In this document: positions 52,938 to 53,614 of the stretch, piece after piece
How positions within the stretch are numbered: the stretch's first letter is position 1
Layout: each line of letters opens with the position of its first letter
Notes under the pieces: model-generated
Database searches by the model: none
What the model saw: the letters and a program-made list of their open reading frames with translations, nothing else
Told to the model about the DNA's origin: nothing
Assembly (NCBI RefSeq): GCF_001267405.1
Contig: NZ_CP012369.1
Coordinates: 2,336,402-2,400,401, forward strand
Direction: 5' to 3'
Length of the DNA: 64,000 nucleotides
DNA from: Moorella thermoacetica
GTDB taxonomy: Bacteria > Bacillota > DSM-521 > Neomoorellales > Neomoorellaceae
Translations under genes and position numbers: made by a program

Positions 52938-53147
52938 TGTAAGGACCTCCTCCGACAATGACTTTTTTGGTCCTGGCTTTAGACAAATGCCGGCGGGAAT
53001 TTTCATGCTCTTTGAAGGCAGCGTGTCGCCAACACGGGCAAAAAAGCATATAATTATAATTTACTTCGACACCGACAGCCAGATTCCTTTCGTTTACTTT
53101 TTTGTCATGGCAAGGTCAAATAATTGCAATTTTTTATCAAGATATAA

Positions 53148-53177
53148 TTCACAAAGTAAGGCTTGTTGTGGTATAAT
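53148..53177 (+). promoter_or_regulatory. Promoter of the 61-codon gene
   Basis: -35 TTCACA (53148-53153), 18-base spacer, -10 TATAAT (53172-53177). The leader then runs about 92 bases to the start codon and contains the stem at 53183-53240. Confidence 0.7.
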
Positions 53178-53182
53178 AAAAG

Positions 53183-53240
53183 CGGGGGAAACGAGAGATA
53201 CTATTTCCGAAACGAATCTAGTTTTCCTGTTCTTCCCCCG
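53183..53240 (+). promoter_or_regulatory. Structured 5' leader of the 61-codon gene
   Basis: CGGGGGAA (53183-53190) and TTCCCCCG (53233-53240) form an 8-bp closing stem at the very 5' end of the predicted mRNA. Inside, GGAAA/TTTCC and GAAAC/GTTTTC could form alternative inner stems. It could protect the mRNA end or respond to a ligand; no known riboswitch class is recognised. Confidence 0.5.
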
Positions 53241-53275
53241 TTACTTATAAATACAGAAAGGAGGCAAACAAAAAA

Positions 53276-53461
53276 ATGATGAAGGACATCCAGCGCAATC
53301 TCCTCCGCGAACGCCAGGCGCTTCTGGAACAGTGGGCTTACGCCCCGGAGAGGGACCGGCCCCACCTGCTCGTCAGGCTCATGGATATCGACGAGCAGCT
53401 TGAACTGGGCAAGGTAAAGAGCAAGCCCCGGACCAGGCTTCCCAAGCGAAATGTGGTCTAG
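53276..53461 (+). CDS. Small 61-residue charged protein of unknown function
   Basis: A soluble, highly charged protein: KDIQRNLLRERQALLEQW, then RDRPHLLVRLMDIDEQLELG and a basic tail. It is predicted helical. GAAAGGAGG upstream of ATG 53276 is a strong ribosome site, and a promoter and terminator bracket it, so it should be well expressed. I do not recognise the family. A second ATG (53279) is possible. Confidence 0.75.
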   Translation: MMKDIQRNLLRERQALLEQWAYAPERDRPHLLVRLMDIDEQLELGKVKSKPRTRLPKRNVV

Positions 53462-53471
53462 GAGGAGAAAA

Positions 53472-53506
53472 AGGCGTGGGAATTTATTCCCGCGCCTCTT
53501 TATTTT
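53472..53506 (+). terminator. Terminator of the 61-codon gene
   Basis: AGGCGTGGG and CCCGCGCCT (one G-T pair) form the stem, followed by CTTTATTTTGG. Confidence 0.8.
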
Positions 53507-53614
53507 GGTTGAGATCAGTTTGGTCGGGATCAGTCGACCTGGTCCAGGTAGTAAAGAAACGTCGGCCATGGCTGCCGGATCGGAGCGGTTACCCTGATAT
53601 ATCGCGACGGCCGG

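Follow-up and report, generated by a model that had tools for sequence, protein, structure and literature searches.

A small-gene transcription unit with a conserved promoter region and a predicted leader hairpin in Moorella

The window, by which we mean the whole 64,000-nucleotide stretch of Moorella thermoacetica DNA that was analyzed, holds a one-gene transcription unit at 53148-53507, made up of promoter, leader, strong ribosome site, 61-codon ORF and terminator (Table 1). The small gene diverges from genes for a CuAO_N1-domain protein, LCP and WecG/TagA, and faces those for Mbl, SpoIIID, an M23 peptidase and a SpoID-type SpoIID, both in Moorellaceae and in many other families; this CuAO_N1-LCP-TagA / Mbl-SpoIIID-M23-SpoIID arrangement is deeply conserved. 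Genes for a TetR protein, an RND transporter and an HlyD protein intervene in the window between the small gene and the Mbl-SpoIIID side. Profile search found the small gene in all 22 genomes of the order and in 73 of the 299 genomes sampled from the phylum, compared with 243 of the 299 for SpoIIID. Because it is absent from about three-quarters of the phylum genomes, most of which have SpoIIID, it must be considered an accessory gene and not a core sporulation gene.

Table 1. Features of the small-gene transcription unit, in window coordinates
Feature	Position	Strand	Basis or remark
A/T-rich block AAATAATTGCAATTTTTTATCAAG	53118-53141	+	UP-element position; nearly invariant in Moorella
AATTCACAAAGT, including the -35 TTCACA	53146-53157	+	kept in 15/18 Moorellaceae
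Promoter of the transcription unit	53148-53177	+	sequence scan
-35 TTCACA	53148-53153	+	within AATTCACAAAGT
Extended -10 TGGTATAAT	53169-53177	+	promoter scan, alignment
-10 TATAAT	53172-53177	+	promoter scan
Leader	53178-53275	+	between -10 and ORF
Leader stem, 5′ arm CGGGGGAA	53183-53190	+	folding, relatives' leaders
ATACT motif, 20 nt after TATAAT	53198-53202	+	fixed position in 17/18 Moorellaceae
Leader stem, 3′ arm TTCCCCCG	53233-53240	+	folding, relatives' leaders
Post-stem motif TTACTTAT	53241-53248	+	TACTTA invariant in 12 aligned leaders
Ribosome binding site GAAAGGAGG	53256-53264	+	sequence; 11 nt before ATG
61-codon gene, helical-hairpin protein with basic tail	53276-53461	+	conservation, purifying selection, predicted structure
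Intrinsic terminator and T-rich tail	53472-53507	+	stem 53472-53497, 11 bp, then CTTTATTTTG

Two short sequences were noted in the upstream regions of this locus and its relatives. TTCGACA, at 53065-53071 in the divergent intergenic region, is the Spo0A box TGTCGAA read on the other strand. Of the 18 Moorellaceae 15 conserve it in one orientation, as do roughly half of the distant loci; the CuAO_N1-LCP-TagA operon may be under Spo0A. The other, WTGYRCYnnnnTTCAC, is found in the 240 nt preceding the small ORF at six loci (L110, L113, L121, L122, L123 and L125), in one to three same-strand copies, two in most cases, with no copy elsewhere in those 12-kb loci. It is missing upstream of the Moorella small gene, and looks like the regulator site of another clade. 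A regulon of the distant loci based on TTGYRCYnnnnTTCAC was rejected, as its other copies there share no gene.

On its conservation and substitution pattern, the 61-codon ORF is a real gene. Protein search found it in 27 of 61 genomes, the named matches being to a Moorella MAG and M. thermoacetica DSM 21394. Its Ka/Ks is 0.03-0.29; Moorella copies differ from the window copy by Ka of 0.007-0.081 and Ks of 0.024-0.453. In 27 sequences, residues R13 and L16 never vary, and L9, W20, D37 and E40 hardly do. The protein is predicted to form a two-helix hairpin followed by a disordered basic tail: AlphaFold places helices at residues 2-22 and 25-46/47, mostly with pLDDT above 90 and alike with or without an alignment, and the C-terminal basic tail is predicted to be poorly ordered. 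An earlier note, made from the sequence alone, had described a charged, helical protein of no recognized family. Structure prediction agrees with the helical description, and searches of the window protein against Pfam, NCBIfam and PHROG models gave no match. A profile search of PDB with the small protein gave nothing significant, fold comparison led no further than generic helical hairpins, with a best Z of 7.1 and the fold too common to name a relative, and literature searches found no paper on the gene. A second branch of the family adjoins ylxM-ffh at four loci (L130, L133, L135 and L136), and some genomes have two or three family members (G005, G053 and G129).

The size of the protein, its two-helix hairpin, its sporulation neighbors and the Spo0A-box-like site in the intergenic region that the divergent genes share would fit a remote Sda- or Spo0E-type inhibitor of the sporulation phosphorelay, placed under a strong promoter. 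We think this quite unlikely. So common a fold cannot discriminate, neither Sda (PF08970) nor Spo0E-like (PF09388) gave a profile match, and their hhalign scores were reached by 41 and 19 of 200 shuffles respectively, so that homology to either is not supported.

The promoter, with TTCACA and TATAAT spaced by 18 nt and an extended -10 TG, makes 11 of 12 matches. The window has only four sites scoring at least 11/12 on its two strands, two of them with the TG, and the TATAAT promoter proposed in the earlier note is thus confirmed. It appears to be a strong promoter of the sigma-A or housekeeping type, and the 61-codon gene is probably highly expressed, a reading of the sequence signals only. 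Upstream is a T-tract at the usual location of UP elements, and the A/T block AAATAATTGCAATTTTTTATCAAG probably has that role. Alignment is gapless from about -75 to +34 around TATAAT in most of 18 Moorellaceae sequences; the order AAATAATTGCAAT, T-tract, TCAAG, AATTCACAAAGT and TGnTATAATA is kept in Moorella.

Two elements of this region that the earlier note does not mention are the most conserved, and extend more widely than the leader stem described below: the -35 block AATTCACAAAGT, and ATACT with its fixed 20 nt to the -10. Exactly 20 nt downstream of TATAAT, 16 of 18 Moorellaceae have ATACT (L004 has it at the same place as the others) and one more has ATACA; the spacing is constant even where the intervening bases differ. 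Of six genomes searched, five have AATTCACAAAGT as a single copy at the small-gene locus and the sixth has two copies. TATAAT-N20-ATACT is present once per genome, always at the small gene, in five of the six, with one extra copy in the sixth. Together AATTCACAAAGT and the fixed-distance ATACT would constitute a promoter-proximal element specific to this gene. Moorella leaders carry a second motif, TTACTTAT, downstream of the stem.

The 8-bp stem that had been seen at the 5′ end of the leader stands as a prediction. Folded from 53178, the leader reaches -24.1 kcal/mol (z = -2.64, equaled by none of 200 shuffles), and the location of the stem fits the transcript start as inferred from the -10. 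The alternative inner stems also claimed fared less well: an imperfect inner hairpin is predicted, but the inner pairings are weak and differ between species. The leaders of all 11 Moorella genomes are predicted to form the hairpin, and genome G015, of a sister genus, has at the same place (L014) a stem of different sequence, pairing AAGUGUGA and GGAAAU with UCAUACUU and AUUUCC; in other sister genera the hairpin is not predicted. Arm duplexes were better than those of shuffled arms for L003-L006, L008, L009 and L011 (p 0.004-0.045) and for L014 (p = 0.002), and not for L007, L010, L012, L013 and L015-L019; L019 has a weak stem, and for L015-L018 there is no support for one. Upstream of its ribosome site, the leader of L015 (G012) has instead a long hairpin rich in GC, GCGCCGGTGTCGAAAGA...TCTTTCGGCGC.

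Covariation, the check proposed in the earlier note, did not clear its control. Over 12 rows 81.6% of cells were paired versus 80.9% in shuffles, with no excess, and a hand-aligned stem was likewise not above shuffles; even so, sliding the stem partners lowered pairing to 41-56%, which counts in favor of the stem. Moreover, the stem is absent from two genomes (G014 and G017) that retain promoter and ATACT in register, and so is not essential across the family. The suggestion of a selected leader RNA therefore has the genus-wide stem and the differing L014 stem on its side, and the covariation result and the loss of the stem elsewhere against it. We regard the stem as a solid genus-wide prediction, with selection on it at the RNA level not proven. 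The same results bear on the possibility that the stem is incidental, selection acting on DNA, where promoter, start region and ATACT would bind RNA polymerase and a putative regulator, and the pairing of a G-run with a C-run being a by-product of common descent. Covariation no higher than in shuffles, the two stemless genomes still in register and the fixed distance from -10 to ATACT are all as expected under it; however, the sister-genus stem of different sequence, and the prediction of a stem in every Moorella despite variable surrounding sequence, are not, and we hold it to be a serious though rather doubtful alternative.

Further tests addressed regulation through the leader. Rfam scanning of the window gave no family above gathering threshold, and lax settings gave only chance-level matches; a riboswitch or known leader was rejected on this basis. 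Sequestration of the ribosome site was rejected as well, GAAAGGAGG being predicted mostly unpaired (0.92), and the leader showed no alternative fold by which translation could be switched. With the ribosome site free and no switching fold, a riboswitch-like reading is without support. When 22 genomes were searched with a covariance model, each Moorella genome and G015 had one strong match and none of the 22 had a second strong copy, so a regulon sharing the leader was also rejected. Weak second matches appeared in four Moorella genomes (L090-L093), apparently at one orthologous place; in G000, the genome of the window (C1:2336402-2400401), this place reads as a feoA-like upstream region with Fur-box-like sequence (both named from sequence), and the match rests mainly on the ribosome site. 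The ribosome site and terminator of the earlier note both hold up, the former as a strong site and the latter as an 11-bp stem followed by its T-rich tail. An SD-like sequence, TAGGAGGAG, begins at the stop codon (53459-53467) and is shared by all 11 Moorella loci, in which no conserved ORF was seen downstream of it.

A regulatory RNA can still be envisaged, in which a protein or small RNA acting in trans would bind ATACT and TTACTTAT as displayed by the hairpin, and so control translation or decay. Within the leader, conservation is highest in the loop and post-stem motifs, which are retained where the stem is lost and would suit such a binder. Lack of an Rfam match, a ribosome site predicted to be free, and a leader carried by no second gene count against it, and we judge it unlikely.

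The explanation we favor, at about even odds of being right, combines a strong housekeeping-type promoter, a stabilizing hairpin at the 5′ terminus and the gene-specific promoter-proximal element. The sigma-A-type promoter, with its UP-like A/T block, TTCACA and extended -10, would start RNA at about 53182-53185, as placed from the -10. The 5′ end of the Moorella transcript would then fold, the stem beginning at the start site or one or two bases away, and the hairpin could shield that end from 5′-end-dependent decay and still leave the ribosome site accessible. The AATTCACAAAGT block and ATACT may tune the small gene, acting as DNA or as nascent RNA, and the terminator would end the transcript. 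The mRNA stabilizer suggested in the earlier note would thus agree with the anatomy, but the conservation of loop and motif sequences is unexpected for a pure stabilizer. For the protein, its neighbors point, with low confidence, to a small adaptor or inhibitor in sporulation onset or envelope assembly. Autoregulation, with the basic-tailed protein binding ATACT/TACTTAT in its own leader, combined with an Sda-like sporulation or envelope checkpoint in a clade with no recognizable Sda, is a bolder proposal that we consider very improbable.

These results add an unnamed small-protein family beside the spoIIID-mbl-spoIID genes and the LCP-TagA operon in several families of the phylum, and describe a small gene whose promoter and start region are held in register across a whole bacterial family. 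Its strong promoter, near-single-copy control elements and spore-gene neighborhood make it a good candidate for deletion in Moorella. If the leader truly stabilizes, it could also serve as a 5′ tag when genes are expressed in a thermophilic acetogen.

Several known systems resemble parts of this unit. A distant homolog of the small protein (G058) matches FliT (PF05400) weakly, with E 0.0013, below the curated cut-off; however, the window protein has no match, and the syntenic loci are not flagellar. With Sda the protein described here shares small size, two helices in a hairpin, an aromatic residue ahead of the turn and a sporulation context, but it has an extra basic C-terminal tail and no detectable sequence or profile relationship. 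Spo0E-like phosphatases share small size, a predicted helical hairpin and spore-forming hosts, but the small-gene locus gives no Spo0E match and several relatives have separate Spo0E-like genes. For the leader, the closest comparison is with the aprE and ermC type of 5′-terminal stem-loops, which stabilize mRNA in Firmicutes. Both have a GC-rich stem close to or at the 5′ end, here an inferred end, together with a free, strong ribosome site; the stem here is limited to the genus plus one sister genus, its stabilizing effect is putative, and, unlike that type, this leader has conserved loop and flank sequences.
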